Origin: Populus alba
Taxonomy: Eukaryota; Streptophyta; Magnoliopsida; Malpighiales; Salicaceae
Reading direction: 5' to 3'
NCBI RefSeq assembly: GCF_005239225.2
Contig: NC_133288.1
Coordinates: forward strand, 16,808,169 to 16,872,168
DNA length: 64,000 bases
Numbering within the stretch: the first letter of the stretch is position 1; each line of letters begins with the position of its first letter. Under the pieces are notes generated by a model that saw nothing but the letters and a program-made list of their open reading frames with translations, was not told the origin of the DNA and searched no databases. Shown one piece after another: positions 1,933-22,519 of the stretch. The position numbers and the translations under genes were made by a program.

Positions 1933-1937
1933 ATGAT
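1933..1937 (+). repeat. Target-site duplication, left copy (ATGAT)
   Basis: ATGAT directly precedes the left LTR terminus TGTCGC at 1938 and matches ATGAT at 22515-22519 directly after the right LTR terminus. Five bases is the usual duplication size for Ty3/gypsy elements. ATGAT is nearly its own reverse complement (ATCAT), so an inverted-repeat reading would also match at 4 of 5 bases. The direct match is perfect. Confidence 0.65.
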
Positions 1938-2516
1938 TGTCGCACATGTGCGGCGTCGCGGCGATTTTACAAGTTTTTCATTTTTTTATCTACAATGTAA
2001 ATCTATCTATCTCTATTTGGCAAATGTTGGGGAGACAAGAAAATATTGTCGTTTATCGGTGGAAAGTGGAATGGGAGTCGCCACCTAGTATTTTGGTCAC
2101 TAGAAACCCTAACTAATCTCAGAGATCGGGTACGGGGACTGGTTGTGTAAAGGGAAGGTATTGGCACCCCAAATACGCCCTACCTAAGGTAAGCTGCATT
2201 GTTTTATTATCTGATAAAATCTAAGGTCTTTTCGTGTTTTCCTAGTTGTTGGTATGGTTCAAGAAAACTCCTCATCGGTAAGGAGATCCTTATCTTAATG
2301 AGTAATTCTGACGTTAACAAAAGAATTTAATATTCGGAATACGTCTTACATATAAGATCGTAACCCCAAATACTAAAAGAAAACACAATAATTTTTTTGG
2401 AATTTTTGAAATATTGGCCCAGTTCTCATGGCTTGAATGAATTGGTTATTAAAGCCAAAATGCATGCTATTATATATATTGTTTTGAAATTTCCTTTGTT
2501 GTGTGAAAATATGATG

Positions 2517-2520
<4 letters not shown>

Positions 2521-2588
<68 letters not shown>
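2521..2588. repeat. (TA)n microsatellite inside the left LTR
   Basis: A near-pure TA run of about 67 bp. The matching place in the right LTR (about 21918-21941) has only about 24 bp, so the two LTRs have diverged in repeat length since or during their formation. Confidence 0.95.
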
Positions 2589-2591
<3 letters not shown>

Positions 2592-3866
2592 GAGACTAGG
2601 CCGTATGCAAGAAAACAAAACATTTTTTATTTTTTTATTTATTTGATGACTTGATGAAAATCGAGTATTTTAATATTGGATTTATATCTTTACAGTATAA
2701 AAATATAAGCTGATATTGACCAAAATGCAACAACAAACTTGTGGAAAATCACATATTTTTTTGAAATAATTCTTTGAAGAATTTTTTTTTCGAACGGGCC
2801 AGACTCGGCCCAAAAGGAAATTGGGCCAAAATCAACCCAAAATAAATTGGGCCGAAACAAGCATGGATTGGTTACTGTACACATAGTAACCGGGTTATTG
2901 TGTGCACAGTAACCAGTTAATTAATTAGCCAGTTACTGTGCACATGCACAGTAACCGGGTAATTATTTTCTTTGCTTGCAGAACACACACAGTGCACGTT
3001 GTGCATGCAAGAAGATGAACAGTAAAATGAGATAAGGGGTATAAGGCTGACCTGTGGTGGTTTTGAAGGCGATGCTATTGGCCGTTGCTGACCGAATGAT
3101 GGCTGAGAGGGTGGTCGGTCTTTCTTCCTTTTTCTCTGTGTTTGTTTTTTTACTCTGTTCTCCTCTGCTCCTCTTTTCTTCTTCTGTTTCTCACAGTGTT
3201 CTTCCCTCTCACGGTGATTTAGTTGTTGTTTGGTAGCGCTGATGGTGCTGGTGACGGTGGAGATGGACGCCGACGATGCCTCACGGTGGTTGTGACAGTG
3301 GCAGGTAGTGTTTGTTGCAGTTTTTCTTCTTTTTCCCGTGCAGAGGCATCAACCTCTGTTTTCCTTTCTAGTTTGCTTCTGTTTGCCTTTCTTCACTGTT
3401 CCTATCACCTTGCTTCTCTGCTTCTTCACTTTCTATTGTTTTGTATCATGGTGTGGCCGCTGGGATGAAGAAGATGATGAGCTGGCGATGGCGTTGGTAG
3501 TGCTGGTGCGGGTGTGATGGAGAATAACAACGGTTCTTCCCCTGTTTTAAAACAAACTCCTCCCTGTTTATTTTTCCTTTAAATCCCCTCCTCTATTTCA
3601 AACTTTCCCGTGTTCTTCCCTTCCTTTCTCTTATTTCGTTCCCAAGTCCCCCCTCTGTTATGCTTTCTTCCTTTCCCCTGTCTCTCGCGCAAAAAACCGC
3701 ACCTCCCATCCTCACTCTAAAAAACTGTTCCCCCTCTGTTTTGGTTTCTCTCTTCTCTACACTCTCACAGTATCTTTCATCATTTCAAACTTCCCTCTCC
3801 TTTTAGTTTTCAAAAGAGCTCTCTCTCGTCCAAAAAAATCCCCCCTGCTGCTGGTGTTGAGAGCAA

Positions 3867-3874
3867 TATTTATA
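3867..3874 (-). promoter_or_regulatory. LTR TATA box (left LTR)
   Basis: The minus-strand word TATAAATA lies about 300 bp inside the U3 start. It is in the same place in all four LTR copies or fragments of this insertion, as expected of the element's own promoter. Confidence 0.6.
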
Positions 3875-4168
3875 TGCTATAAGGGAGCGGGCTGCTGTTG
3901 CGCGTGGGGAGCAGGGGACACCAGGTGAGGTCTTCAAGCAGGGGGCGCGGGGCTTTAAGTTTTGGGAGCAGCATGCAGTCATTGGCGTGGGGCTCTAGGC
4001 TCGGTCACTGTTCCTCGTTTAAAGGGGGCGTGGGGCTTTAGGTAGCGTGCGGAAATAGAGAGCGGGATGAACAATGTCTGTAAAAACGACATTGTTCATT
4101 TTTTTTTAATTAATTTTATTTTTTTATTTTTATTTTATTTGTAGGGGACCTAAAAATGGGTTACAACA

Positions 4169-4182
4169 GATGCCCCCTCTTT
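4169..4182 (-). other. Polypurine tract next to the left LTR
   Basis: The minus strand reads AAAGAGGGGGCATC directly before the LTR start TGTTGTAAC. This is the plus-strand DNA primer site of an LTR retrotransposon. The same tract precedes the LTR starts at 17124, 19329 and 20343. Confidence 0.8.
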
Positions 4183-4309
4183 ATAAAGATAAACCAAAAC
4201 TGAACTTCCAAAGTTGATCTTGATTGACCTGAAACTTTGTATTTACAACAATTCCGCTTCAACCCGAAACTAAGATCAAAACTCAGTCTTCTCAAGATCC
4301 CAATTTGGC
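4183..4309 (-). other. Retrotransposon 3' untranslated segment next to the tract
   Basis: A non-coding segment between the polypurine tract and the hairpin array. It is homologous to 16970-17105, 19340-19500 and 20165-20325. Confidence 0.6.
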
Positions 4310-5785
4310 GATCCTCAGGCCTCTAACTTTGGTTATATTAACCTGGCATTCCATTTGAGATCCCTTCTGGCAATCTCTTTTAACTAAAAATCTATATTTG
4401 TAGTTTGGCCAACCTGAAATCCCATCTGGCGATTTCCCTTAGCCAAAGTTGATATCTATGTTGCAATTGGGCTAACCTGAGATCCCATCTGGCGACCTCC
4501 TTAAACCAAAATCTATAATTGTAGCTTACTTAACTTGGAATCCCATCTGGCGATTCCCTTTAACCAAAATGAAATATGAGGTCCCTTCTGGCGACCTCTT
4601 TTGACCAATATCGAAATACGAGATCCCTTATGGCAATCTCTTTTAACCAATCAACTTGGAATCCCATCTGGCGATTCATTTTAACCAAAATGAAATATGA
4701 GGTCCCTTCTAGCGACCTCCTTTGACCAATATCGCAATACAAGATCCCTTCTTGCGATCTCCTTTAACAAAAAATCTTGGAATACCATCTAGCGATTCCT
4801 TTTAACAAAAATTGAAATATGATGTCCCTTTTGGCGACCTCCTTTGAACAATATCAAAATACGAGATCCCTTATAGCGATCTCTTTTAACAAAAATCTTG
4901 GAATCCCATCTAGCGATTCCTTTTAGCCAAAGCTGAAATATGAGGTCCCTTCTGGCGACCTCCTTTGACCAATATCGAAATACGAGATCCCTTCTAGCGA
5001 TCTCCTTTAACAAGAAATCTTGGAATCCCATCTGGCGATTCCTTTTAACCAAAGCTGAAATATGAGGTCCCTTCTGGCGACCTTCTTTGACCAATATCGA
5101 AATATGAGATCCTTTCTGGCGATCTCCTTTAACAAAAAATCTTGGAATCCCATCTGGCGATTCCTTTTAACCAAAGCTGAAATATGAAGTCCCTTCTAGC
5201 GACCTCCTTTGACCAATATCGAAATACGAGATCCCTTCTTGCGATCTCCTTTAACAAAAAATCTTGGAATCCCATCTGGCGATTCCTTTTAACCAAAGCT
5301 GAAATATGAGGTCCCTTCTGGCGACCTCCTTTGACCAATTTCAAAATACGAGATCCCTTCTAGCGATCTCCTTTAACAAGAAATCTTGGAATCCCATCTA
5401 GCGATTCCTTTTAACCAAAGCTGAAATATGAGGTCCCTTCTGGCGACCTCCTTTGACCAATATCGAAATATGAGATCCCTTCTGGCGATCTCCTTTAACA
5501 AAAAATCTTGGAATCCCATCTGGCGATTCCTTTTAACCAAAGCTGAAATATAAGGTCCCTTCTGACGACCTCCTTTGATAAATATCGAAATACGAGATCC
5601 CTTCTGGCGATCTCATTTAACCAATCAACTTGGAATCCCATCTGGCGATTCCTTTTAACCAAAGCTGAAAATATAAGATCCCTTCTAGCGATCTCCTTTA
5701 ATCAAAAACCAAAAAATCTATTTTGTAAATCGGTCAACCTGGAATCCCATCTGGCGATTCCCTTTTACCGAAGCTGATATCGATG
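4310..5785 (-). repeat. Tandem hairpin array in the retrotransposon 3' region (copy 1)
   Basis: Tandem repeats with a period of 122 bp: the phrase CTTGGAATCC recurs at 5019, 5141, 5263, 5385 and 5507. Each unit holds three subunits of about 40 bp. Each subunit contains a short inverted repeat around a loop GCCAGAWGG (minus-strand sense), with stems GGAATC/GATTCC, GAGATC/GATCTC or GAGGTC/GACCTC. The array ends are degenerate. It lies between integrase and the LTR, so it would be transcribed in the element's 3' untranslated region. ORFs through it (repeated RRDLVFRYWSKEVARRDL) exist because 122 bp units carry few stops, and they are not considered genes. Confidence 0.9.
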
Positions 5786-6489
5786 TCGTTCTTCCTGATG
5801 GAAATTTTTTATTATTATTATTTAAAAGGTTCTTCTCGTTATTCCAAAATTAAAACTGTGATTCTTTGTTATCATCAACTCAGTGATTCTTTCTTCGTCC
5901 ATAATTTTGTTGGATTACATTAAGGATTCCTCCTGTAACGATTCAAAAATAATGCAATGATTTATGATTAGATGCCATGCATGCATTCGTACCTGGTTTT
6001 GAAACATAGGCCCCATCATCTTCTTCTAGTTCATAAAACTCTCTTAACATGAGCTTGTTTTTGGAGTTGTATGCTGGATTCATTTCTCGTGTTGCCTCTT
6101 TTTACCTATCATATCTTGAAGAAGAAGTCTTCGACTTTTTATAAGTAGCCTTTTTTCTCAGAATGTATGACTTGTCATTGCCTCTTTGTCATGCTTTTGT
6201 CAAATGCTTTATCTTTTTCAAATCTACGAGCTCTCATCCCGTTTTGAAAACATGTAAAACTTTTCATGAAATATCTTTTATTGCCCCCAGTGGGAGTGTG
6301 ATCCTAGTCCGGGTTTTTTTTTTTTTAAAGAAGAAATTCATTCAGCCAATGATAAACTTTTTAGTGAGTGATACGATAACAACAAGAAATGCACTGTTGG
6401 GATTAATGCAAGAATGATTGTTGTGAGATCAATGCAAAAAAGAAAGAAGTCAATGACCAAACTTTGTTTTATTGATTTAGGTGCCTACA
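5786..6489 (-). other. Retrotransposon spacer between integrase and hairpin array
   Basis: Non-coding in the element's orientation. The stretch 6000-6345 is mirrored by 14876-15240 in the plus-oriented half, which shows that both halves carry the same 3' region. No gene is supported. Confidence 0.65.
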
Positions 6490-9400
6490 TCAAGCATAAT
6501 ATCTTTTCACAGAGTCAAAATTCACAGGTCGAGCTAGGTCTTCCCCGTCCATTCTAGCCAACTTTAGCGCTCCTCTTGAGAATGCCTTCTTTACTATGTA
6601 AGGACCCTCGTAATTTGGTGCCCATTTGCTTTGATCATCTTCGGGTAACGACAATATTTTCTTCAATACTAGATCCCCTTCTTGAAACAACCGCGGTCTA
6701 ACCTTTTTATCATATGCCTTGGCCATTCGTTTCTGGTAAAGTTGGTGATGACATATTGCAGCCATCTTCTTTTCACTGATCAGGTTTAGTTGCTCATATC
6801 TCACTTTGGCCCACTCGGCCTCTTCTAATTTAGAATCCATCAACACTCTTAACGACGGGATTTCCACTTCCAAAGGCATCACTGCCTTCATACCGTACAC
6901 CAGAGAATATGGGGTAGTCCCTATCGAGGACCTGACTGTAGTGCGGTACGCATGAAGAGCAAACGGCAACATCTCATGCCAAACTCTATATGTGACTACC
7001 ATTTTCTGAATAATCTTTTTGATGTTCTTGTTGGTGGCTTCTACTGCGCCATTCATTTTTGGTCAATATGGTGAGGAATTCGAATGCTTGATTTTCCATT
7101 TAGTACACAGCTCTACTATCATTTTGCCATTGAAATTCTGTGCATTATCTGTCACTATCTTTTCCGGAGGACCATATCGGCAAATCAAATCCTTTTCTAC
7201 AAACTTCTTCACTATCTTATGTGTTACGTGGGTATACGAATTAGCTTCCACCCATTTTGTGAAGTAGTCAATAGTTATGAGGATGAATCTATGACCATTG
7301 CTAGCTTTTGGGTTAACAGGACCGATCACGTCAATTCCCCACATTACAAATGGCCATGGAGATATTAGATTAAATAGAGGAGCTGGAGGTGTATTGACCT
7401 TATCACTGTAAACTTGACACTTGTGACACTTCCTGACATAGTCGATATAGTCTTTCTCCAGTGTCATCCAAAAATAACCATCCCTTTGAATTTTCCTTGC
7501 TATCATATGCCCGCTAGCATGGGTTGAGCAAATCCCCTCATGGACCTCTCGTAATGTCTTTCTAGCATCGGCCTCATTCAAACACCTTAGCAGGGTTCCA
7601 TTAAATGATCGTTTATATAAAATCTCTCCATCTAAATAGAAGTTTATAGCCAACCTTCTCAAGGTTTTCTTATCCGTTTTAGAAGCTCCCACCGGATATT
7701 CATGATTTTGCACTAGATTCTTGATATCGTAATACCAAGGTTGTCCGTCTATCTCTCCTCCAACTAAACAATAGTGAGCTGGGTCATTTCTAATGTCAAT
7801 GTGTACCAATTGTACCTTACACTTGAGATCAATGGTAGTCATAGCAGCTAGTGTGGCCAAAGCATCCGCAAAATGGTTCCCCTCTCTTCCTAGATGGGTG
7901 AATCTAATTTCTTCAAATTCCTTGGCTAGCGTGGATAGGTATTCCTGGTACGGCCTCAACTTTTCTTCTTTGGTTTGCCATTCCCCTTTAACCTGGCAAA
8001 TAATCAACATTGAATCCCCATATACATCTATCTTCTTTATTTTCAGCTCTAATGCTGCTTCTAAACCGAGGATACAAGCTTCATACTCAGTTGTATTGTT
8101 GGTGCACTCAAAATGCAGTTTCACCGAAACTGGATACTGTTTCTTATTAGGAGAGATTATTACCGCACTGGCCCCATTACCATATACATTCATTGCCCCG
8201 TCAAAAAACATGGTCCACCAATCTGTCTTCTCTTCTTCTTTTTCTATTGACAATATATCTTCATCTAGGAAATCAAAATCCAAAGGTTCGTAATCTTCAA
8301 CAGCATTATCGGCCAGATGGTCCGTAATTACACTCCCTTTTACGGCTTTCCTTGTCATATACACTATGTCATATTCTGCCAATAAAACCTGCCACCTTGC
8401 AATTCGGCTTGAGAGAAAGGGCTTGTTACAAATATACCTCACAGGATCCACTTTTGAAATCAACCAAGTGGTATAGTATAACATATAATGTCGCAACCTC
8501 TTTGCCGCCTACACCAACGCACAACAAAGCCTTTCTATCTCAGTGTATCTAGATTCACATTCAGTGAATTTCTTACTTAAGTAATAAATAGCTCTTTCCT
8601 TCCTTCCGGTTTCATCATGCTGACTCAATACACATCCCATGGCTGCTTCAGTTACTGTTAGATATAATACTAGAGGTTTTCCTGATACCGGAGGAACCAG
8701 TAATGGTGGATTTTGTAAATAATGCTTGATTTTATTGAATGCCTCCTCACACTCCTCATTCCAGGTTCCAAGATTCTTTTTTCTCAGTAGTCGGAATATA
8801 GGTTCATATGTCGTGGTTAGCTGAGCTATAAACCGAGCAATGTAGTTTAACCTTCCCAAGAATCCTCTTACTTCTTTCTCCGTCTTAGGGGATGACATAG
8901 CTTGAATTGCCCTTATTTTATCTAGATCCACCTCTATACCTCTTTCACTTACCACAAATCCTAACAGCTTGCCCGATTTAACTCCGAATGAACATTTTGC
9001 AGGATTAAGCCTTAGTTCATACTTCCTCAACCTCTCAAATAACTTCCTCAAAATTTCAACATGATCTTGTCCCTTTTTAGACTTGGCAATCATATCATCT
9101 ACATACACCTCAATTTCCTTGTGCATCATGTCATGGAATAGAGTCACCATTGCTCTTTGATATGTTGCTCCTGCATTCTTCAAACCAAATGGCATGACCT
9201 TGTAGTAGTAGGTCTCCCAAGGTGTGACAAAAGTTGTTTTAGCCTTATCCTCTGAAGCCATTTTTATCTGGTTGTATCCTGAAAAATCATCCATAAAGGA
9301 ATAAGTAGAACTTCAGGCAACGTTTTCCATTATAACATCTATGCGTGGTAGAGGAAAATCATCCTTAGGGCTAGCTCTATTCAAATTCCAAAAATCCACA

Positions 9401-9972
9401 CAAACTCTAATCTTCCCCTCCTTTTTAGGCACCACAATAATGTTAGATACCCATTGTGGATACCTAACTACTTCTAGAAAACCAGCATCCCATTGCTTCT
9501 CGAGTTCTGCCTTGACCTTGATCCAGACATCCGGGTGGGCCCTCCTCAGCTTCTGCTTGACTGGCTTACAACCTTCTTCCAATGGTATCTTGTGTACTAC
9601 AATACTTGTATCCAAACCGGGCATATCTTCATAGGACCAAGCAAAGACATCTAAATATTCTTACAATAGGGCGATCATTTTTGTCCTTTGTTCAAAAGTA
9701 ATTAAGGTACCTATTTTCAACTCTTTCTTGAGCTGATCACTGCCCACATTGATGGTTTCGAGTTCCTCAGCGACAGGCTTCCAAGTATGTTCATGTTGTT
9801 CTACTAGCCTGGTGAATTCACTGATATTGCTTTCATCCCACTCTTCTTCTTCCATAGCTATCACATGCTTGTTCAAGTTTGGCCATTTATTCTTGATGTT
9901 AAATGTATGTGATGTTGTAGGAGATCCGCTTTCAGGATTCCTGAAAGCGGGAAGTGCTTGGTGTAAATGCAT
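6490..9972 (-). pseudogene. pol: Tat/Ogre pol: reverse transcriptase, dual RNase H, integrase (interrupted)
   Basis: One minus-strand reading frame runs from 9972 to the stop at 6490 and is broken only by in-frame stops at about 9661, 9313, 8507 and 7060; no frameshift was seen. Order of parts: an N-terminal linker; RT with MPFGLKNAGATYQRAM and the catalytic YVDD; a gypsy-type RNase H (TEAAMGCVLSQ); a second RNase H with FFDGA, YEACILGLEAAL and NHFADALATL; then integrase with an H-C zinc region (KCHKCQVYSD) and the acidic residues in WGIDVIGP, VTDNAQNF and NGAVEA. The second RNase H is the hallmark of the Tat clade. The product would copy the element RNA and insert the DNA, but these stops make it inactive as it stands. 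Protease is absent from this copy, because homology ends near 10391 at a rearrangement junction. Confidence 0.9.
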
Positions 9973-10391
9973 AAAAAATAATTTTGAAAAGTGCTTGATC
10001 TCATCTTTTATTTAAAGAAAAGGTGGGCTCAATGACAAACACAAAATCTAGCTAACATCATGAGTCTTGATTGTCAACTAGAGGAAATAAAAGCAAACAT
10101 AAGCAATAACAAAAGCATGTTAAGGCAAACAAAGTTGGTTTACATTTTGAAAACTACTAGAGCTTCTTTGGTCACCCAGTTCTGAAACTTCTCATCCTAA
10201 GCCAACTTGCGCACAAAGGTCTTGGCAGAGACTTCTTCTAGTGTATGGACTGTCAGTTGTGGCAGCACTTTATCTCCTTTTCCCGCTACTGCTTTCATGC
10301 CATCTCCTTCCTCCTCATTTTCCTCCAAGGTGTTTATGCTCATATTTCTCAGCTCTTGACCAAGGCTTTCAGCTCTTTTATCATGTTGCAT
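9973..10391 (-). pseudogene. Region between protease and RT, truncated at an inversion junction
   Basis: Minus-strand coding-like sequence at about 10150-10391 contains HTLEEVSAKTFV, and the same peptide occurs on the plus strand at about 14400-14440. A non-coding-looking stretch (9980-10150) also mirrors 14500-14660. Homology to the element stops near 10391 and the following sequence changes strand. Confidence 0.6.
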
Positions 10392-10480
10392 TATGTATGC
10401 AGCTTTTGGGAATTATACGCTAAGGGGAGGGATTTCTAGCTTTTCTTCTTCAGGCTCTCTTCCTTTAATTTTAGCCATCC
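10392..10480. other. Junction filler between minus and plus retrotransposon halves
   Basis: About 90 bp that matches neither the minus copy ending at 10391 nor the plus gag copy starting near 10480. It could be filler DNA or diverged element sequence. Confidence 0.4.
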
Positions 10481-12132
10481 TTCTTGCCCTTCAGAACAAC
10501 TTCCGCCGTTACCCATGCCTTTGAAAGACATGTACGCCAAACTATTGAGCATTGGGCACATAGCTCCTATCCCTACACTACCATTACAACCACCATTCCC
10601 AATTTGGTACAAGCCCAAGTTGACTTGTGAGTACCGTACGGGTAATCCCGGGCATGGGATTGAAACCTGTTACGCTTTCAAAAAGAGGTTGTTGGAGCTT
10701 ATTAAGATAGGATGGGTATCCTTTGAAGACAAGCCCAATGTTAATTCAAACTCGTTGCCTACACATGCCTCAAGTAGTAGTGGAATAGGCATGATAGAGG
10801 TTGGAAATCAATGCAAGGTGTTGAAGGTGTCTATGAAAAAGATATATGACATGTTAGTATGATCAGGATTTTTAGAGGCAAATGTGGAAGGTCATTCGGA
10901 GGGAGGTGGCTATTGTGAGTTCCATGGAAGAGATGGACACCATATTGAGGATTGCATCGAGTTTTGAGAAAAATATTGCAAAAATGTTAAAAATAGGGCA
11001 ATTGAGAATTGAACCCATGGAGAGCGGGGGTGAGGTGAGTATGATGGAAGGTCAAGATGAGATGACAGGAGTATGCAAGGTACAACAAACAGCTAATAGG
11101 CCCCCAAGGCTAATTTTGGTTAAACCGTCCTGCACAAAAGGGAATCACAATGTCATGCCTTATAATTATGGTTATGCTTCCAACGTTCGAGCTCCTCTTC
11201 CTTTGTTCCAAACCGAGATAAGTGGTTTGACCATAAGTGGTCGTTGCTTTACGCTTGAGGAGTGGAGGAAGGAAAAGGGTAAAGAAGTGGTAGATCTGGA
11301 CAAAGCGCTAGAAGTGAATAAGCCAGTAACGAAAGAGGAGTCGAATGAATTCTTGAAGTTGATCAAGCATAGCGAATATTGCATAGTAGATCAACTAAAA
11401 AAGACTCCAGTTAGGATCTCCCTTATGTCCTTGATACTCAGCTCTGAGCCGCATCAAAACGTCTTGCAAAAGGTATTGAATGAGGCATATGTACCTTAAG
11501 ACATTGAACATAAAACCATGGAGCATCTAGTGGGGAGGATCCATGCAACTAATTACCTGTACTTCACGGCTGATGAGCTTAATGCTGAAGGTATCGGGCA
11601 TAACAAGCCCTTATACATTACGGTTAGATGCAAGGACTGCCTTATAGGAAAAGTACTCATTGATAATGGCTCGGCCCTTAACGTGTTACCAAAGCACATT
11701 CTGGAGGAAATGCCAATCGATGAATCCCATATAAAAGCCAAGTACTATGATGGCCAGAGCGTATGATGGCTCCCCTAGGCCAATAATTGGAACTTTAGAA
11801 GTGGAACTATATGTGGGACCATAAATGTTCCTAGTGACACTTCAGGTTATGGATATCCACCCTTCATATAGTATGTTGTTGGGAAGACCTTGGATTCATG
11901 CAGCGGGGGCAGTAGCTTCATCATTGCACCAATGCCTGAAGTATATCATGAATGGGATGTTGGTAACTGTCAAGGCCGAGGAGACAGTATCCATGATAAA
12001 GAATATGGTTGTGCCTTTTATCGAAGCAGATGATTGCAAGGATAACAATATCCATGCTTTTGAGGTTGTGAACACTGATTGGGTGCCGGAGAACATGGTA
12101 CTAAGAAGGCCAAGGATCTCAGAAGCAGCAAG
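10481..12132 (+). pseudogene. gag C-terminus and aspartic protease fragment of the Tat/Ogre element
   Basis: The plus strand carries the end of gag (10515-10862; PMPLKDMYAKLLSIG and a Cys/His knuckle-like CEYRTGNPGHGIETC). A frame change leads into 10882-11499, a stop, and then the protease at 11518-11766 with the active-site word VLIDNGSALNVLP. A second frame change leads to 11825-12130 with LLGRPWIHAAGAV, the typical C-terminal protease flap/strand region of plant Tat elements. It has at least two frameshifts and one internal stop, so it is not functional. The fragment stops abruptly at a primer-binding-site-like sequence at 12135. This is the only protease copy in the insertion. Confidence 0.8.
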
Positions 12133-12134
12133 AA

Positions 12135-12152
12135 TGGCGACTCCGCTGGGGA
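12135..12152 (+). other. Primer binding site matching tRNA-Arg
   Basis: TGGCGACTCCGCTGGGGA is complementary to the 3' end of a plant tRNA-Arg whose mature end is GGAGTCG plus CCA. Tat/Ogre elements are known to prime from tRNA-Arg. A leader and gag follow, as expected. It is not preceded by an LTR 3' end: protease-coding sequence abuts it, which is abnormal. Confidence 0.75.
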
Positions 12153-12843
12153 CCTTATAGACTAAGCTTTGTTTTTGTCTGATTTGTTTGTGTTTTCATG
12201 TGTTTATTGTTAATATGCATTTCCTTTTATTTATTTGCGTATTTATGTTTTATTTTATGCGTATTATTCATGCATTGTATAAAATTGTCTCATGCATCAC
12301 TTGCTTTTATTTTGAGAAACACACACAAGCCTTAAGTTAAATGGGGAATTAGTGGTTTGCCCTAAGACTATTGGCCAGGGTTCAGATGCGTGAAACACCC
12401 AACTCATATCTGAGTGCCTGCTTTGCAATGGTGGGCATACGTGCTTTAATTGTTCCTTGCAACGCCCCCATACTATCTTTACGAAGAACGTCACTTGATA
12501 GATATGAGACCCTTCAAGACTAGATAGAAAACCTACCCATTCTCACTTAATAAATAGAGCTTGTCCTTAGAATATTTATCTTATTTCCATTTGCATCAAG
12601 ATTAATAATGTTAAACTCATTAATACAGGCTTTTGAGATGAAATCATTTTTTGTTTTAGTAAGCTATTATGATAAAAACTTAGCAAAAGGATTACAAAAG
12701 TCATGAATCAGCTCCAAAAAAATACACATCACTTGTGCATCACATTTTCATCACGCATTTTGTTTTTAAATTATCATATGCATTCCAGATCGTGAAACAT
12801 AGGTCCCACATCTAAAGTCCACCACACCCGGTCCAGATCAAGG
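12153..12843 (+). other. Retrotransposon leader between primer site and gag
   Basis: About 690 bp of non-coding sequence between the primer site and the gag start at 12844. This matches the long leaders of Ogre-like elements. No conserved ORF was seen. Confidence 0.6.
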
Positions 12844-14286
12844 ATGGAGAACGAAGAAAGAGCACGCTTAGAGTCACATTATCAGACTGAGTTGGAATCC
12901 ATAAAAAACGAAGTTGCTCGGTTGACTGACTTACTCGAGCAACTACTAAGAGCTAAGAATGGGGAGGGAACGTCAGCACAACCACCTAAAGGAGCGCCAG
13001 CAGCTCACATCCCTCAAGTATCTCAAAACCAGGGGGCAAACTCGGCCACTGAACAACATTTTATGCCTATTACCCCTATCCAACCAACTCATGCTCCAAT
13101 CACTATTGACTTAACAACGGAGGGAATCCCAGATAATAGATCTCCTAATTTGATGGACTAGAACAAGTTGTTTGCCTTGGAAGAAAGATTAAGGGCAGTT
13201 GAGGGTAATAATTGGTTTAACCCTATGCGAGCAGCTGAAGTATGTTTAGTACCAAACATCGTGGTGCCAAAAGATTTTAGGATACCAGAGTTCATTAAGT
13301 ACACTGGTTTGGAGTACCCAAACACTCACCTTCGATCCTACTGCAATAAAATGGCGGAAGTAATCCGCGATGATAAACTGCTAATCTATTTCTTTCAGGA
13401 TAGCCTCGCAGAGTCTGCTTTGAGCTGGTACATGAGGTTAGATAGTGTCAGAATCAGGAGCTAGAGAGACTTGGTGGAGGCCTTCCTTAAGCAGTACAAG
13501 TTTAACATGGAAATCGCTCCTGATCGAACAAGTCTAATGTCAATGGAGAAAAGGAGCCAAGAGTCAGTAAGGGCTTATGCACAAAGGTGGAGGGATGAGG
13601 CAATGCATGTCCAACCCACTTTAATAGAAACAGAGATGGTGACTTTGTTTGCCAATACCTTCAAGGCACCATATTATGAGCATTTAATAGGTAGCTCAGC
13701 TCAGCATTTGTATGATGTTGTACGCATAGTGAAAAGAATAGAGCAAGGGATTAAAGCTGGACACATAATTGAGCCATTGGAGACAAAGGGTTTTATTGGA
13801 AGAAAAATGGAAGGTCCCGTTAACAACTTTGAAGGTGGGTCCAATAGCAAGATAACAGATTCATATAACCCACAAATACCTACCTCTCATGTGGCCCACA
13901 TAAACTTTAACAAACCTTTTTCCCCTAATCGAGCAAATAACTAGTCAAACAACCAAAACAACCACCAAAGACGAAACACAAGATACATTTTAGAACAACT
14001 ACCGCCATCACCTATGCCTTTGAAGGACATGTATACCAAACTACTGAGCATTGGAAAAATAACTCTTATCCCTACATTACCACTACAGTCACCATTCCCC
14101 ATCTGATACAAGCCCGAGTTGACTTGCGAGTACCATGCTGGTATTCCCGGGCATTGTCTTGAAACGTGTTATGCTTTCAAGAAAAGGTTGTTGGAGCTCA
14201 TCAAGATAGGATGGGTGTCATTTGAAGACACGCCCAATATTAATTCAAATCCATTGCCTGGTCATGACGAAAGTAATAGGGGATAA
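12844..14286 (+). pseudogene. gag: Tat/Ogre gag (interrupted by stops)
   Basis: A single plus-strand frame starts at ATG 12844 with a charged coiled-coil N-terminus (ESIKNEVARLTDLLEQLL), followed by the retrotransposon gag core (SLAESALSWYMRL, then VEAFLKQYKFNM, RSQESVRAYAQRWRDEA) and a Cys/His knuckle-like CEYHAGIPGHCLETC. Stops interrupt it at 13159, 13462, 13942, about 14104 and 14284, with no frameshift between them. Gag would form the cytoplasmic particle around element RNA. Compared with 10481-10862, the C-terminal part is a second copy in the same orientation. The protease region that should follow is missing here. Confidence 0.85.
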
Positions 14287-14660
14287 AGGGTTGGAAAACC
14301 TTGGTCAAGAATTGTCAATAATGAAGAAGGTGAGATCGAAGGAGATGACAAGGAAACATAAGTGGGGAAGGAAGATGAAGCATTGCCACGGTTGACTTTC
14401 CACACACTAGAAGAAGTCTCCGCCAAGACCTTCGTGTGCAAGTTGGCTCAGGGTGAGAAGTTTCAGAACGGGGTGACCTAAGAAGTTCCCATAGTTTTCA
14501 AAATGTAAAACAACTTTATTTGCCTTAGCATGCTTTAGTCATTGCTTTTATTTGCTTTTATTTTCTCTAGTTGACAATCAAGGCTCATGATGTCAGCCAA
14601 ATTTTGTGTTTGTTTTTTAGCCTACCTTTTTTTAAAATAAATGATGAGATTATGCACTTT
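14287..14660 (+). pseudogene. Post-protease linker, protease deleted
   Basis: Directly after the gag knuckle region comes the linker containing HTLEEVSAKTFV (about 14400-14440) and an AT-rich stretch that mirrors 10015-10391 on the minus strand. The protease seen at 11518-12130 is absent, so a deletion of over 1 kb lies near 14290. Confidence 0.6.
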
Positions 14661-14875
14661 TTAAACAAGGTTGAGTGGTTACAAAGAAAGTATCATAAAT
14701 CAATCAAAGATGAAATTTAAGAAAAGGTACCCCTGAAGTACAAACCTTACCTCTGGATAGCATAATGAATTGACAAATCACCTGTAAATTTATTTCAAGA
14801 TAAAAATAGAGTTTATCAATCCTAACAATGTGCATTTTGAAATAAGAAAAATTCATCGTTAGCAGTCCTGTTTTA
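14661..14875 (+). other. Unassigned segment at the pol deletion
   Basis: This sequence sits where about 3.5 kb of pol should be. I found no convincing match to pol or to flanking parts of the minus copy. It is either diverged spacer or filler at the deletion. Confidence 0.4.
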
Positions 14876-15454
14876 AGCCAGAATGAATTTCTTCTTTTTA
14901 AAAACCCGGACTAGGATCATACTCCACACTGGGGGAAATAAAAGATATTTCATGAAAAGTTTTACATGTTTTCAAAACGGGATAAGAGCCCGTAGATTTG
15001 AAAAAGATAAAGCATTTGACAAAAGCATGACAAAGATGCAATGACAAGTCATACATTTTGAGAAAAAAAAGGCTACTTGTAAAAAGTCGAAGACTTCTTC
15101 TCCAAGATATGATAGGTAAAAAGAGGCAACAAGAGAAATGAATCCAGCATACAACTCCAAAAGCAAGCTCATGTTAAGAGAGAGTTTCATGAACTAGAAG
15201 AAGATGATGGGGCCTATGTTTCAAAACCAGGTACGAATGCATGCATGGCATCTAATCATAAATCATTGCATTATTTTTTAATCGTTACAGGAGGAATCCT
15301 TAACGTAATCCAACAAAATTATGGACAAAGAAAGAATCACTGAGTTGATGATAGCAAAGAATCACGGTTTTGATTCTGGAATAATGAGAAGAACCTTTTA
15401 AAAAAAAATTTCAAACCCTGCCATCAGGAAGAACGACATCGATATCAGCTTCGG
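14876..15454 (+). other. Retrotransposon spacer before the hairpin array (plus copy)
   Basis: Mirrors 5786-6345. The shared words include AAACCCGGACTAGGATCATA and the AGAAGTCGAAGACTT-type region. Non-coding. It shows the plus copy joins the 3' region directly after losing pol. Confidence 0.7.
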
Positions 15455-16900
15455 TAAAAGGGAATCGCCAGATGGGATTCCAGGTTGATCGATTTACAAA
15501 ATAGATTTTTTGGTTTTTGATTAAAGGATATCGTCATAAGGGATCTCATATTTTCAGCTTTGGTTAAAAGGAATCGCCAAATGGGATTCCAAGTTGATTG
15601 GTTAAAAGAGATCGCCAGAAGGGATCTCATATTTCGATATTTATCAAAGGAGGTCGCCAGAAGGCACATCATATTTTAGCTTTGGTTAAAAGGAATCGTC
15701 AAATGGGATTCCAAGTTGATTGAGATCGCCAGAAGGGATCTCGTATTTCGATATTGGTCAAAAGAGGTCGCCAGAAGGGACCTCATATTTCAGCTTTGAT
15801 TAAAAGGAATCGCCAGATGGGATTCCAAGTTGATTGAGATCACCAGAAGGGATCTCGTATTTCGATATTGGTCAAAAGAGGTCGCCAGAAGGGACCTCAT
15901 ATTTCAGCTTTGGTTAAAAGGAATCACCAGATGGGATTCCAAGTTGATTGAGATCGCCAGAAGGGATCTCGTATTTCGATATTGGTCAAAGGAGGTCGCC
16001 AAAAGGGACCTCATATTTCATTTTTGGTTAAAAAGAATCGCCAGATGGGATTCCAAGATTTTTTGTTAAAGGAGATCGCCAGAAGGAATCTCGTATTTCG
16101 ATATTGGTCAAAGAAGGTCGCCATAAGGGACCTCATATTTCAGCTTTGGTTAAAAGGAATCGCCAAATGGGATTCCAAGTTGATTGAGATCGCCAGAAAG
16201 GATCTCGTATTTCGATATTGGTCAAAGGAGGTCGCCAGAATGGACCTCATATTTCAGCTTTGGTTAAAAGGAATTGTCAAATGGGATTCCAAGATTTTTT
16301 GTTAAAGGAGATCGCCAGAAAGGATCTCGTATTTCGATATTGTTCAAAGAAGGTCGCCAGAAGGGACCTCATATTTCAGCTTTGGTTAAAAAGAATCACC
16401 AGATGGGATTCCAAGATTTTTTGTTAAAGGAGATCGCCAGAAAGGATCTCGTATTTCGATATTCATCAAAGGAGGTAGCCAGAAGGGACCTCATATTTCA
16501 GCTTTGGTTAAAAGAAATTGTCAGATGGGATTCCAAGATTTTTGGTTAAAGGAGATCGCCAGAAGGGATCTCGTATTTCGATATTGGTCAAAGGAGGTCG
16601 CCAGAAGGGACCTCATATTTCATTTTGGTTAAAAGGAATCGCCAGCTGGGATTCCAAGTTGAGTAAGCTACAATTATAGATTTTGGTTTAAGGAGGTCGC
16701 TAGATGGGATCTCAGGTTAACCCAACCACACATAGGATTTTGGTTCTAGTTAAAGGGGATCGCTAGATGGGATCTCAGGTTAGCCCAACCGCAACACAGA
16801 TATCAACTTTGGCTAAGGGAAATCGCTAAATGGGATTTCAGGTTGACCAAACTACAAATATAGATTTTTAGTTAAAAGAGATCGCCAAAACGGATCTTAG
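15455..16900 (+). repeat. Tandem hairpin array in the retrotransposon 3' region (copy 2)
   Basis: The plus-strand counterpart of 4310-5785. Subunits of about 40 bp carry stems GGAATC/GATTCC, GAGATC/GATCTC and GAGGTC/GACCTC around the loop GCCAGAWGG. Near 16820 a further variant has the stem GAAATC/GATTTC. Some units lack one subunit (for example GTTGATTGAGATCGCC joins at 15717, 15832 and 15947), so unit number and composition differ from copy 1. ORFs running through it are not considered genes. Confidence 0.9.
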
Positions 16901-17109
16901 ATGGAATGCCAGGTTAATATAACCAAAGTTAGAGGCCCGAGGACTGCCAGATTGGGATCTTAAGAAGACTAAGTTTTGATCTTAGTTTCGGGTTGAAGCG
17001 AAATTGTTGTAAATACAAAGTTCCAGGTCAATCAAGATTAGTTATGGTAGTTTAGTTTTGTTTATCTTTATAAACTTACTGTGCAAAATCCCTGCTCCGT
17101 AAGTATTAT
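16901..17109 (+). other. Distal retrotransposon 3' untranslated segment
   Basis: Homologous to 20130-20328 and, inverted, to 4183-4320. It includes the conserved GGGTTGAAGCG-type phrase and leads into the polypurine tract. Confidence 0.6.
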
Positions 17110-17123
17110 AAAGAGGGGGCATC
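17110..17123 (+). other. Polypurine tract (internal plus copy)
   Basis: AAAGAGGGGGCATC directly precedes the LTR start TGTTGTAACC at 17124. Confidence 0.8.
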
Positions 17124-18028
17124 TGTTGTAACCCATTTTTGGGTACACCCCACAAATAAAATAAAAAAGAAAATAATTAAAAAAAAACAGTGTCGTTTTG
17201 ACACTGTTCCTCTTTCCGCACGCCGCCTAAAGCCCCACGCCCCCTTTAAACAAGGAACAGTGACCGAGCCTAGAGCCCCACGCCAATGACTGTATGCTAC
17301 TCCCAAAACTTAAAGCCCAGCGCCCCCTACTTGAAGACCTCACCCGGTGTCCCCTGCTCCCTTCTAGCATATAAATACTACTCTCAACACCAGCAACGAG
17401 GGGGGATTTGTTTTGAGGGAATGGAAGAGAAGTTTGAATGAGAGAAAAGAGAACGGAGAGAAAAGAAGGAAAGAATACCGGGGGGGAGTTTTTGAACAAA
17501 GAGAGAAAACGAAATAGAGAGAGGAGGGAAGAAGACAGGAAAGCTTGAAACAGAAAGGGGAGTACAAACACGCCAGTATTGACATGGATCATCATTTTTT
17601 TAGCTCATCATTCTTCACACGCGCTGCTGCACCATTGAAGAAGAAGAAGAAAACAAATGTTGTCATCGAGCTTTCCAGCCATTTCCACCTTCCTAACCAC
17701 CGTGAGGAATCTTCGGCTTCCTATTCACCACCACCAGCACCATCAACGCTGCCAAAAAATAGCAGAATCACTGTGAGAGGGAATAGCACTGTGAGAAACA
17801 GAAGAAGAAAAAAGAAGCAGAGGAGAACAGAGTAAAACAAAAAACACAAAGAAAAAGGAAGAAAGGCCGACCACCATCCCAACCATCCTTCGGTCAGCAA
17901 CCGCCAGCAAAACCGCTTTTAAAGCCACCACAGGTCAGCCCTTTGCCCCTTATCTCGTTTTACTGTTCATCTTCTTGCATGCAAAACATGCATTGTGCAC
18001 GTTCTGCAAGCAAGAAAATAATTACCCG
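17124..18028 (+). repeat. Partial LTR, plus orientation (diverged)
   Basis: Begins with the LTR 5' end TGTTGTAACCCATTTTTGGG and carries the TATA box at 17370-17377. It ends inside the LTR near the word CCCGGTTACTGT at about 18028-18040, where it turns back on itself. The matching span in the right LTR is about 1.2 kb but here about 0.9 kb, so there is an internal deletion. It is visibly more diverged than the other three LTR copies, for example at 17380-17560. Confidence 0.75.
17370..17377 (+). promoter_or_regulatory. LTR TATA box (internal plus LTR fragment)
   Basis: TATAAATA lies in the conserved context TCTAGCATATAAATACT, about 245 bp from the LTR start, matching the box in the other LTR copies. 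Confidence 0.5.
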
Positions 18029-18125
18029 GTTACTGTACACAGAGTAACCGGGTTACTGTGTGCACAGTAACCAGTTAATTAATTAGCCAGTTACTGTGCA
18101 CATGCACAGTAACCGGGTAATTATT
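18000..18125. repeat. Centre of the LTR palindrome
   Basis: Here the plus LTR fragment meets a minus LTR fragment head to head. The join falls in a cluster of short inverted words (GGTTACTGTACAC, GAGTAACCGGG, TGCACAGTAACC). Arms of about 0.9 kb on each side are inverted copies with almost no spacer. Confidence 0.75.
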
Positions 18126-19329
18126 TTCTTTGCTTGTAGAACGCACACAGTGCACGTTCTGCATGCAAGAAGATGAACAGTAAAATGAGATAAGGGGTAT
18201 AAGGCTGACCTGTGGTGGTTTTGAAGGCGGTGCTACTGGCGGTTGCTGACCGAAGGATGGCTGGGAGGGTGGTCGGTCTTTCTTCCTTTTTCTCTGTGTT
18301 TGTTTTTTAACTATGTTCTCCTCTGCTCCTCTTTTCTTCTTCTGTTTCTCACAGTGTTCTTCCCTCTCACGGTGATTTAGTTGTTGTTTGGTAGCGCTGA
18401 TGGTGCTGGTGACGGTGGAGATGGACGCCGACGATGCCTCACGGTGGTTGTGACAGTGGCAAGCAGTGTTTGCTGTAGTTTTTCTTCTTTTTCCCGTGCA
18501 GAGGCATCAACCTCTGTTTTCCTTTCTAGTTTGCTTCTGTTTGCCTTGCTTCACTTTTCCTATCACCTTGCTTCTCTGCTTCTTCACTTTGTATTGTTTT
18601 GTATCATGGTGTGGCCGCTGGGATGAAGAAGATGATGAGCTGGCGATGGCGTTGGCAGTGCTGATGCGGGTGTGATGGAGAATAACAACAGTTCTTCCCC
18701 TGTTTTAAAACAAACTCCTACCTGTATATTTTTCCTTTAAATCCCCTACTCTATTTCAAACTTCCTCGTGTTCTTCCCTTCCTTTCTCTTCTTTCGTTCC
18801 CAAGTCCCCCCTTTGTTATGCTTTCTTCCTTTCCCCTGTCTTTCGCGCAAAAAACCTCACCTCCCGTCCTCACTCTAAAAAACTCCTCCCCCTTTGTTTT
18901 GGTTTCTCTCTTCTCTACACTCTCAGAGTATCTTTGATCGTTTCAAACTTCCCTCTCCCTTTAGTTTCCAAAAGAGCCCTCTCTCGTCCAAAAAAATCAC
19001 CCCTGTTGCTGGTGTTGAGAGCAGTATTTATATGCTAGAAGGGAGCATACTGTTGTTGCGCGTGTGGAGCAAGGGACACCGGGTGAGGTCTTCAAGCAGG
19101 GGGTGCGGGGCTTCAAGTTTTGGGAGAAGCATGTAGTCATTGGCGTGGGGCTCTAGGCTTAGTCACTATTCCTCGTTTAAAGGGGGCGTGGGGCTTTAGG
19201 CAGCGTGCGGAAATAGAGAGAGGGATGAACAGTGTTTGTCAAAACGACACTGTTCATTTTTTTAAATTAATTTTATTTATTTATTTATTTTTATTTTATT
19301 TATGGAGGATCTAAAAATGAGTTACAACA
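18029..19329 (-). repeat. Partial LTR, minus orientation
   Basis: Read on the minus strand, it begins TGTTGTAACTCATTTTTAGA at 19329 and runs to about 18029, stopping at the palindrome centre. It closely matches 2868-4168 (left LTR), so the U5 half of the LTR is missing. It contains the TATA box at 19025-19032. Confidence 0.8.
19025..19032 (-). promoter_or_regulatory. LTR TATA box (internal minus LTR fragment)
   Basis: Minus-strand TATAAATA in the conserved LTR context, about 300 bp from the LTR start at 19329. Confidence 0.5.
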
Positions 19330-19668
19330 AATGCCCCCTCTTTATAATGCTTACGGAGCAGGGTTTTGCGTAGTAAGTTTTATAAAGATAAACAAAAACT
19401 GAACTCCCGAAACTGATCTAGTCGAAGCTTGATCAATCTGAAACTTTGTCTTTACAGCAATCCTCCTTAGCCCCAAAAAAAACTATGATCAAAATTTAGT
19501 CATCTCGAGATCCCAATCTGGCGATCCTCGGGCCTCTAACTTTGGTTATATTAACTTGGCATTCAATCTGAGATCCCTTCAGGCGATAGCTTTTAACTAA
19601 AAATCTATATTTGTAATTGGGCTAACCTGAGATCCCATCTGGCGATTTCCCTTAGCCAAAGCTGATAT
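19330..19668 (-). other. Retrotransposon 3' region fragment (minus), with polypurine tract
   Basis: Starts with a polypurine tract (minus AAAGAGGGGGCATT), runs through the distal 3' segment and a few degenerate hairpin subunits, and switches strand near 19668. It is mirrored by 19990-20342, giving an inverted pair with about 320 bp between arms. Confidence 0.7.
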
Positions 19669-20342
19669 CTGGCGACATTTTGATATTGGTCAAAGGAGGT
19701 CGCCAAAAGGGACCTCGTATTTCATTTTGGTTAAAAGGAATCGCCAGATGGGATTCCAAGTTGATTGGTTAAAGGAGATCGCCAGAAGGGATCTCGTATT
19801 TCGATATTGGTCAAATGAGGTCGTCAGAAGGGACCTCATATTTCATTTTGGTTAAAGGGAATCGCCAGATGGGATTCCAAGTTGATTGGTTAAAGGAGAT
19901 CGCCAGAAGGAATCTCGTATTTCGATATTGGTCAAAAGAGGTCGCTAGAAGGGACCTCATATTTCATTTTGGTTAAAGAGAATCGCCAGATGGGATTCCA
20001 AGTTGAGTAAGCTATAATTATAGATTTTGGTTTAAGGAGGTCGCCAGATGGGATCTCGGGTTAGCCCAACTACAAATATAGATTTTTTGTTAAAAGAGAT
20101 CGCTTGAAGGGATCTCAGATGGAATGCTAGGTTAATATAACCAAAGTTAGAGGCCCGAGGATCGCCAGATTGGGATCTTGAGAAGACTGTGTTTTGATCT
20201 TAGTTTCGGGTTTAAGCGGAATTGCTGTAAATACAAAGTTTTAGGTAATCAAGATCAATTTTGGAAGTTCAATTTTGGTTTATCTTTATAAAACTTACTG
20301 CGCAAAACCCCTGCTCCGAAAGTATTATAAAGAAAGGGCATC
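19669..20342 (+). other. Retrotransposon 3' region fragment (plus): short hairpin array and polypurine tract
   Basis: About 19680-20110 holds plus-oriented hairpin subunits of the same type as 15455-16900, followed by the distal 3' segment and a variant polypurine tract (AAAGAAAGGGCATC, 20329-20342) directly before the right LTR. No pol or gag is left between the two strand switches. Confidence 0.75.
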
Positions 20343-22514
20343 TGTTGTAACCCATTTTGAGGTCCTCCATAAATAAAATAAAAATAAATAAATAAAATTA
20401 ATTATAAAAAAATGAACAGTGTTGTTTTGACAGACACTGTTCATCCCTCTCTCTATTTCCTCACGCTGCCTAAAGCCCCACGCCCCCTTTAAATGAGGAA
20501 CAGTGACCGAGCCTAGAGCCCCACGCCATTGACTGCATGTTGCTTCCAAAACTTAAAGCCCTGCACCCCCTGCTTGAAGACCTCACCCGGTGTCCCCTGC
20601 TCCCCACGCGCAACAGCAACCCGCTCCCTTCTAGCATATAAATACTGCTCTCAACACCAGCAGCAGGGTGGATTTTTTTGGACGAGAGAGGGCTCTTTTG
20701 GAAACTAAAAGGTGAGGGAAGTTTGAAACGATCAAAGATACTGTGAGAGTGTAGAGAAGAGAGAAACCAAAATAGAGGGGGAGGAGTTTTTTAGAGTGAG
20801 GACGGGGGTGCGGTTTTTTGCGCGAGAGACAGGGGAAAGGAAGCATAACAGAGGGGGGACTTGGGAACGAAAGAAGAGAAAGGAAGGGAAGAACACGGGG
20901 AAGTTTGAAATAGAGGAGAGGATTTAAAGGAAAAATAAACAGGGAGGAGTTTGTTTTAAAACAGGGGAAGAACCGTTGTTATTCTCCATCACACCCGCAC
21001 CAGCACTGCCAACGCCATCGCCAGCTCATCATCTTCTTCATCCCAGCGGCCACACCATGATACAAAACAATACAAAGTGAAGAAGCAGAGAAGCAAGGTG
21101 ATAGGAACAGTTAAGCAAGGCAAACAGAAGCAAACTAGAAAGGAAAACAGAGGTTGATGCCTCTGCACGGGAAAAAGAAGAAAAATTGCAGCAAACACTA
21201 CCTGCCACTGTCACAACCACCATGAGGCATCGTCGGTGTCCATCTCCACCGTCACCAGCACCATCAGCGCTACCAAACAACAACTAAATCACCGTGAGAG
21301 GGAAGAACACTGTGAGAAACAGAAGAAGAAAAGAGGAGCAGAGGAGAACAGAGTAAAAAAACAAACACAGAGAAAAAGGAAGAAAGACCGACCACCCTCT
21401 CAGCCATCATTCGGTCAGCAACGGCCAATAGCATCGCCTTCAAAACCACCACAGGTCAGCCTTATACCCCTTATCTCATTTTACTGTTCATCTTCTTGCA
21501 TGCACAACGTGCACTGTGTGTGTTCTGCAAGCAAAGAAAATAATTACCCGGTTACTGTGCATGTGCACAGTAACTGGCTAATTAATTAACTGGTTACTGT
21601 GCACACAATAACCCGGTTACTATGTGTACAGTAACCAATCCATGCTTGTTTCGGCCCAATTTATTTTGGGTTGATTTTGGCCCAATTTCCTTTTGGGCCG
21701 AGTCTGACCCGTTCGAAAAAAAAATTCTTCAAAGAATTATTTCAAAAAAATATGTGATTTTCCACAAGTTTGTTGTTGCATTTTGGTCAATATCAGTTTG
21801 TATTTTTATACTGTAAAGATATAAATCCAATATTAAAATACTCGATTTTCATCAAGTCATCAAAAAAATAAAAAATAAAAAATGTTTTGTTTTCTTGCAT
21901 ACGGCCTAGTCTCTCCAATATATATATATATATATATATAACATCATATTTTCACACAGCAAAGGAAATTTCAAAACAATATATGTATTAGCATGCATTT
22001 TGGCTTTAATAACCAGTTTATTCAAGCCATGAGAACTAGGCCAATATTTCAAAAATTCCAAAAACAATATTGTGTTTTCTTTTAGTATTTGGGGTTAGGA
22101 TCTTATACGTAAGACGTATTCCGAATATTAAATTCTTTTGTTGACGTCAGAATTACCCATTAAGATAAGGATCTCCTTACCGAGGACGCCTTTTCTTGAA
22201 CCATACCAACAACTAGGAAAACATGAAAAGACCTTAGATTTTATCAGACAATAAAACAATGCAGCTTACCTTAGGTAGGGCATATTTGGGGTGCTAATAC
22301 CTTTGATTTACTCAACCAGTCCTCGTACCCGATCTCTAAGACCAGTTAGGGTTCCTAGTGATCAAAATACTAGGTGGTGACTCTCATTCCACTTTCCACC
22401 GATAAATGACAATATTTTCTTGTCTCCCCAACATTTGCCAAATAGATATAGAATATTACCTTTAGACTTAAAGTGGGACATATAATTTCGCCGCGATGCC
22501 GCACACGTGCGACA
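20343..22514 (+). repeat. Right outer LTR (plus orientation, about 2.17 kb)
   Basis: Begins TGTTGTAACCCATTTTGAGG at 20343 after a polypurine tract and ends GTGCGACA at 22514, followed by ATGAT. It is an inverted copy of 1938-4168; for example, a 60-codon window around 21270-21452 is unchanged at protein level relative to 3054-3236. It has a shorter TA run (about 21918-21941) and a different sequence block at about 22445-22495, just inside the U5 end. Confidence 0.85.
20637..20644 (+). promoter_or_regulatory. LTR TATA box (right LTR)
   Basis: TATAAATA in the phrase CTAGCATATAAATACTGC, about 295 bp into the LTR. If active it would fire outward, toward 22.5 kb. Confidence 0.6.
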
Positions 22515-22519
22515 ATGAT
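22515..22519 (+). repeat. Target-site duplication, right copy (ATGAT)
   Basis: Directly follows the right LTR terminus GTGCGACA and matches 1933-1937. Confidence 0.65.

Follow-up and report, generated by a model that had tools for sequence, protein, structure and literature searches.

The window analysed here is a 64,000-nt stretch of Populus alba DNA (contig NC_133288.1, here C5:16808169-16872168) from an assembly of 416 Mb in 96 contigs. It carries a 20-kb insertion of long terminal repeat (LTR) retrotransposon sequence at its positions 1933 to 22519. The original prediction for this locus described a Tat-type element with inverted outer LTRs, the unique 5′ (U5) end of the LTR at both tips and the 5-mer ATGAT on either side. 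All of these features were recovered. The interior was found to be a chain of five segments running in mixed directions, established by self-comparison of the window and by comparison with other genomic copies. The features are as follows, with the strand where one applies.

1933-1937: left putative target-site duplication, ATGAT (read at the tip)
1938-4168, minus: LTR a, complete, with the U5 tip at 1938, the start of the unique 3′ (U3) region, TGTTGTAACCC, at 4158-4168 and the polypurine tract (PPT) at 4169-4179 (pattern scan)
1938-10492, minus: segment 1, comprising the 3′ LTR, the 3′ untranslated region (UTR) with a 122-bp minisatellite (4534-5699), integrase (INT), ribonuclease H (RNase H, RH), reverse transcriptase (RT) and the intron-side sequence X (self-comparison, Pfam, other copies)
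7063-8508, minus: open reading frame (ORF) with RVT_3 (the second RNase H, presumably aRH-like), Integrase_H2C2 and rve (Pfam)
8509-9312, minus: ORF with RVT_1 (partial) and RT_RNaseH_2 (Pfam)
10489-10492: junction J1, an inversion between X (minus) and the gag end (plus) with a 4-nt overlap, CTTC (two copies compared per side)
10489-12132, plus: segment 2, the putative gag end and protease (PR) region, inverted relative to segment 1 (comparison with other copies)
12131-12132: junction J2 between protease and the LTR/leader border next to the primer binding site (PBS), with a 2-nt overlap, AG, or 8 nt with one mismatch (other copies)
12131-18072, plus: segment 3, comprising the PBS, a gag-like ORF (13465-13944), an X-like piece (14338-14665), the minisatellite (15523-16662), the PPT and start of LTR b (17113), and LTR b truncated at about 18072 (self-comparison, C2 copy)
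12135-12152, plus: PBS, TGGCGACTCCGCTGGGGA (pattern scan)
18028-18124: junction J3, a turn from plus to minus at an 84-bp U3 sequence that is imperfectly palindromic, with its left-arm counterpart at 2883-2966 (other copies)
18028-19670, minus: segment 4, comprising truncated LTR c (18028-19329), a PPT (19330-19340) and 3′ UTR (self-comparison, pattern scan)
19671-19677: junction J4, a turn from minus to plus in the minisatellite of the 3′ UTR; some 6 nt, perhaps minisatellite, separate the two matches (other copies)
19677-22514, plus: segment 5, comprising 3′ UTR minisatellite, a PPT (20332) and complete LTR d (20343-22514), with the U5 tip last (self-comparison, pattern scan)
22515-22519: right putative target-site duplication, ATGAT (read at the tip)

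The left end reads tatATGAT followed directly by TGTCGCACATGTGCGG, and the right end reads CCGCACACGTGCGACA followed directly by ATGATTATTG. The two tips are one LTR end in inverted orientation, TGTCGCAC at 1938 and GTGCGACA finishing at 22514. Comparison of the window with itself aligned 1933-4733 with 22519-19682, inverted, at 89%; inverted arms of kilobase length cannot be due to chance. A normal copy of the family at C2:12826404-12832916 identifies this end. Its first LTR finishes with the same end directly before the PBS (GCGACA, then GAATGGCGACTCC) and its second LTR begins with TGTTGTAACCC, preceded by the polypurine tract. Since the end in question lies on the PBS side in the C2 copy, where the U3 start follows the PPT, both outer ends of the insertion are U5 ends. 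The RT, two RNase H and integrase domains of the window run from right to left towards the left LTR. Pattern scans of the window located four PPT/LTR starts (4158 minus, 17113 plus, 19319 minus and 20332 plus), two U5 tips and a single PBS. A normal LTR retrotransposon has direct LTRs with one U3 and one U5 tip, whereas the outer LTRs here (about 2.2 kb each, 1938-4168 and 20343-22514) are inverted and both tips are U5. The 5-bp direct repeat that marks a single integrase-mediated insertion is present, with ATGAT abutting each tip. A probe of the genome with the LTR tip gave 3473 first-look candidates, of which 40 were scored, and matches lie on contigs C1-C19. One 54-bp match to the family, at 80%, is all that was found around the insertion, over 21.9 kb on its left and 41.5 kb on its right.

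Judged by its predicted domains, the element is a Ty3/gypsy retrotransposon of the Tat type (Ogre/Retand-like). Pfam placed RVT_1, RT_RNaseH_2, RVT_3, Integrase_H2C2 and rve in order, that is RT-RH, a second RNase H and then INT; the RVT_3 match would represent the archaeal-type RNase H of Tat elements. The accessible text of PMC6317226 gives this order for Ogre and Retand elements. From left to right the segments read LTR-INT-RH-RT (minus), gag end-protease (plus), PBS-gag-3′ UTR-truncated LTR (plus), truncated LTR-3′ UTR (minus) and 3′ UTR-LTR (plus). The gag and protease labels are putative. A Pfam search gave one weak Retrotrans_gag match (E 0.01, below the cut-off) and no match in the protease region; the labels otherwise draw on position and on a D-N-G-S-A motif in segment 2, which we take to be that of the protease. 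The PBS is presumably of the tRNA-Arg type. Segment 3 resembles the C2 copy, which lacks pol. We note that the 122-bp minisatellite of the 3′ UTR is present in about 9.6 copies in segment 1 and likewise in segment 3, where spacings of 114 and 122 bp are mixed.

The outer LTRs a and d share a tract of 469 bp (2800-3268, minus) without a single difference, and their divergence elsewhere is uneven. Counted part by part, there are 4 substitutions in 640 bp (2600-3240), 11 in 410 bp (3240-3650), 33 in 518 bp (3650-4168) and 52 in 662 bp on the U5 side (1938-2600), a range of 0.6-7.9%. Over the first 368 bp at least 18 other genomic LTR tips, among the 40 candidates scored, outscore the right LTR as a match to the left LTR. 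In the U3 part that was compared, LTRs a, c and d (segments 1, 4 and 5) are 94-96% alike, and LTR b (segment 3) is only about 79% like them. LTR b thus belongs to a different subfamily, which points to two templates. A third is suggested by LTR c, which shows 3-4% difference in the part over which a and d agree fully. The segments would therefore derive from at least two related templates and probably three. The original prediction had taken the insertion for a palindromic product of reverse transcription, and this part of it oversimplifies. The arms differ, most clearly in the 52 substitutions on the U5 side, and segment 3 contributes an LTR of another subfamily. The middle consists of gag-PR and PBS-gag in one orientation and not of two mirror halves; the whole is a five-piece mosaic of two or more templates. 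A snap-back palindrome of one strand was rejected on the same grounds, as the arms differ and the middle is unmirrored.

The junctions were compared with other copies in the genome. For J1, 40 of 602 candidates were scored and matches longer than 1.4 kb were compared, 39 of them besides the window. In 38 of these 39 the order is normal, gag-PR followed by X (the start of the RT side), with about 158 bp between the two matches at the position of the putative Ogre-type intron region; in the window the two stand head to head. J1 itself was found at none of the 39 other places among the scored candidates. For J2, 40 of 1305 candidates were scored, giving 39 places besides the window. The PBS side only is matched at 33 of these, 30 of which match from window position 12131 on, and the protease side only at the remaining 6; both sides together occur at 0 of the 39. 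The distance from J2 to the LTR/leader border, at which the LTR gives way to the GAA spacer preceding the PBS, is at most 1 nt, and in five copies the border reads ACA followed by GAATGGCGACTCC. An ordinary nested insertion was considered as the source of J2 and rejected, as protease and PBS would then be separated by the LTR and a duplication. None of the four junctions J1-J4 contained recognised host DNA.

We consider the locus best explained by one integration of a composite complementary DNA (cDNA) with U5 at both ends, to which we assign a probability of about 0.72. To this extent the original prediction, which had also proposed a single integration, stands. The reading is supported by the inverted U5 tips with ATGAT on both sides, by the position of J2 at the LTR/leader border, by junctions in which no host DNA was recognised, with short overlaps at J1 and J2 and a palindrome at J3, and by surroundings almost free of the family. 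The lack of a counterpart to J1 or J2 among the scored places and the mosaic identity of the outer arms also support it. Repeated template switching by the copying enzyme before a single insertion is the most likely route. An autonomous RNA and a pol-less relative, and probably a third copy as well, would have been packaged in one virus-like particle. Synthesis of a minus strand would have begun from U5 and undergone four template switches, three of them reversing the strand. One strand may have halted at the PBS edge and, skipping the second transfer that would normally follow, continued on the protease region of the other template; the chain could then have been finished by copying another minus strand out to the U5 end of the latter. 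A minus strand begins at U5 and, after degradation of the R-U5 RNA, terminates close to the edge of the PBS. J2 is thus located where a minus strand would stop, and a switched product starting and finishing on minus-strand 5′ ends would have U5 at both tips. With no U3 terminus in the product, integrase would have brought the two U5 ends together, with the usual duplication of 5 bp as the result. In vitro, HIV-1 integrase favours the pairing of two U5 ends, and a 5-bp duplication is found in most of the sequenced products, as given in the accessible part of PMC8742673; integration through two U5 ends is therefore not exotic for this class of enzyme.

The same sequence could be reached within a single U5/U5 integration in a slightly different way. 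Two separate cDNAs without 5′ LTRs may have been paired by their U5 ends, their far ends being joined by host repair. The more specific proposal of a natural U5/U5 concerted integration, in which two different cDNAs whose second strand transfer had failed, and which therefore lacked a 5′ LTR, were paired by integrase and fused at their far ends by switching or end joining, is possible but somewhat doubtful.

The main rival has two elements inserting nearby in opposite orientations and being fused later by deletion and rearrangement (end joining or replication template switching), with loss of both 5′ LTRs and the intervening DNA; ATGAT on both sides would then be a coincidence. We consider this unlikely, although several observations favour it and weigh against a single integration. 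The first concerns the 5-mer. The original prediction had cautioned that ATGAT, being nearly palindromic, carries less weight than an ordinary 5-mer, which is right, for a further reason: the targets of the family are biased. The 5-mers flanking U5 were collected from 36 tips, of which 3 running into a PBS were dropped and 33 kept; four tips adjoining element sequence (the C2 and C4 5′ LTRs and a pair on C14) were left out of the sample. A occupies position 1 in 18 of the 33 flanks and T position 5 in 17; ATGAT itself occurs in 2 and ATCAT in one. Among flank pairs from other copies, 4 of 528 would pass as a duplication by chance. A position-wise model puts the match at 0.0022, and the left flank that is needed would arise with a chance of 0.0077. 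The chance of a 5-bp match given the biased target is thus roughly 0.2-0.8%, and the match favours one integration roughly 130- to 460-fold. This does not decide the question if template-switch complexes are taken beforehand to be the minority. Such complexes are few in a survey of Triticeae, which lists 2 against 20 recombinant complexes in its table (the text reads as 2 of the 20); recombinant complexes are the commoner class in that survey (PMC1950507).

The second concerns the outer LTRs, which are not clearly sisters. In a tree of LTR tips (13 rows) the left and right LTRs do not group and their terminal branches are unequal, 0.035 and 0.070 respectively; an approximately unbiased (AU) test on 11 rows does not reject their sisterhood (p 0.204), the tree being poorly resolved. 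Unequal branches are also expected from two insertions of different age and lean towards that history. The identical 469-bp tract beside 6-8% divergence leans towards one event, being as expected if both arms were partly copied from the same RNA recently, but gene conversion between inverted arms could also yield such a tract. Neither the branches nor the tract settles the number of events. Thirdly, overlaps of 2-4 nt at J1 and J2 also fit end joining, and the LTR/leader border was singled out after J2 had been seen; a random break within 1 nt of that border is nonetheless unlikely. Against all this, two insertions would require the ATGAT coincidence, at about 0.2-0.8%, a junction no more than 1 nt from the LTR/leader border and four rearrangements without recognised host DNA. 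They would also require the same LTR subfamily to have inserted twice at a site whose surroundings hold one 54-bp match to the family.

A mixed history is highly unlikely. Segments 2 and 3 would have been joined by reverse transcription in an ordinary element with U3 on the left, and a later chromosomal event at J1, and perhaps at J3 and J4, would have added a second element. It accords with J2 alone bearing the mark of reverse transcription and with J1, J3 and J4 fitting either process, but it still requires the ATGAT coincidence, and no other copy of J2 was found at the 39 other scored places. An assembly artefact, from fold-back or collapsed repeats, is scarcely credible: the family is high-copy, and a locus on C17, almost perfectly palindromic by eye, could be an example, but the outer LTRs here differ by 0.6-7.9% from part to part, unlike fold-back reads, the window contains no Ns and clean 5-mers stand at both tips. 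A terminal-inverted-repeat DNA transposon with long inverted ends is ruled out by the internal RT, RNase H and integrase genes and by the direct LTRs, PBS and PPT of the normal copy.

Some further observations were made on the family and the site. At C17:20190694-20203483 (L034, L035 and L065) Tat gag-PR/X matches are arranged symmetrically, by eye, about position 20197089 or so, and at the centre a short spacer is flanked by an inverted copy of a further RT-like sequence; this is either a recent inverted duplication or an assembly fold-back. At C14:4638391-4638470 (L027) about 79 bp of DNA separates two U5 tips that point towards each other. This DNA is leader sequence directly following the PBS of one element, and the arrangement suggests that one element inserted into another, at a depth of about 80 bp; the far side is a run of N. 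The start of the 5′ LTR of a normal C4 copy, sought in order to read the duplication of that copy, was not found in the stretches examined. Weak matches between the flanks and L021 raised the question of a common repeat and were dismissed as noise from A+T-rich sequence. Plant LTR elements generally have near-random target duplications, according to the accessible text of PMC6317226, and the A/T bias and recurrent ATGAT of the 33 U5 flanks contrast with this. The region of the insertion contains at least one gene: an ORF at 58830-59546 (minus) encodes LysM domains and is LYK4/5 receptor kinase-like. A 228-bp unit is present in two tandem copies at 38598-39041, within a 226-aa reading frame (38386-39066, minus) that has no Pfam match.

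If one U5/U5 integration is the right explanation, integrase can use two U5 ends in a natural genome, as purified HIV-1 integrase does, and cDNAs without a 5′ LTR are not dead ends. If incomplete cDNAs were indeed paired, such pairing would be an escape route into the genome. The locus also supplies a search rule, namely LTR pairs pointing U5-outward with one duplication, that can be counted in any assembled plant genome and would give the rate of U5/U5 events and of strand-reversing template switches in virus-like particles. It further warns annotators that inverted LTR pairs are not necessarily two insertions.

Literature searches, mostly at the level of titles and abstracts, turned up no published case of an inverted-LTR, U5/U5 integrant, and in the accessible part of PMC5668417 the word 'inverted' does not occur. 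As far as the available text of PMC6317226 describes the Tat lineage, the element resembles its Ogre and Retand clades in the second RNase H between RH and INT, perhaps the intron-bearing Ogre elements in the region between gag-PR and RT, and the lineage as a whole in its large LTRs and its tandem repeats in non-coding parts; normal members differ from the window insertion in having direct LTRs. Complexes formed by recombination after insertion (Devos et al. 2002, as cited in PMC1950507) are similar in that their outer LTRs are not clearly of one origin. As described there, they arise between direct LTRs and lack flanking duplications, unlike the insertion in the window. The template-switching complexes of Sabot and Schulman 2007 (PMC1950507) are likewise composites of related elements with one 5-bp duplication, which those authors attributed to template changes among RNAs packaged together and a single integration afterwards. 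Their complexes have three direct LTRs, standard outer ends and two complete cores. The window insertion has inverted outer LTRs, U5 at both tips, no complete 5′ LTR and three strand reversals. The outermost LTRs of their complexes, products of one reverse transcription, are highly similar; ours combine 469 identical bp with parts that are 6-8% different. Where theirs share a third, internal LTR between two direct cores, LTRs b and c are truncated and mutually inverted. The HIV-1 integrase system (PMC8742673, in its accessible part) is an in vitro one with short donor DNA, and the window holds a natural insertion of another family, known from its sequence alone. The two would be alike in the pairing of two U5 ends and in the 5-bp duplication, which most of the sequenced in vitro products have.

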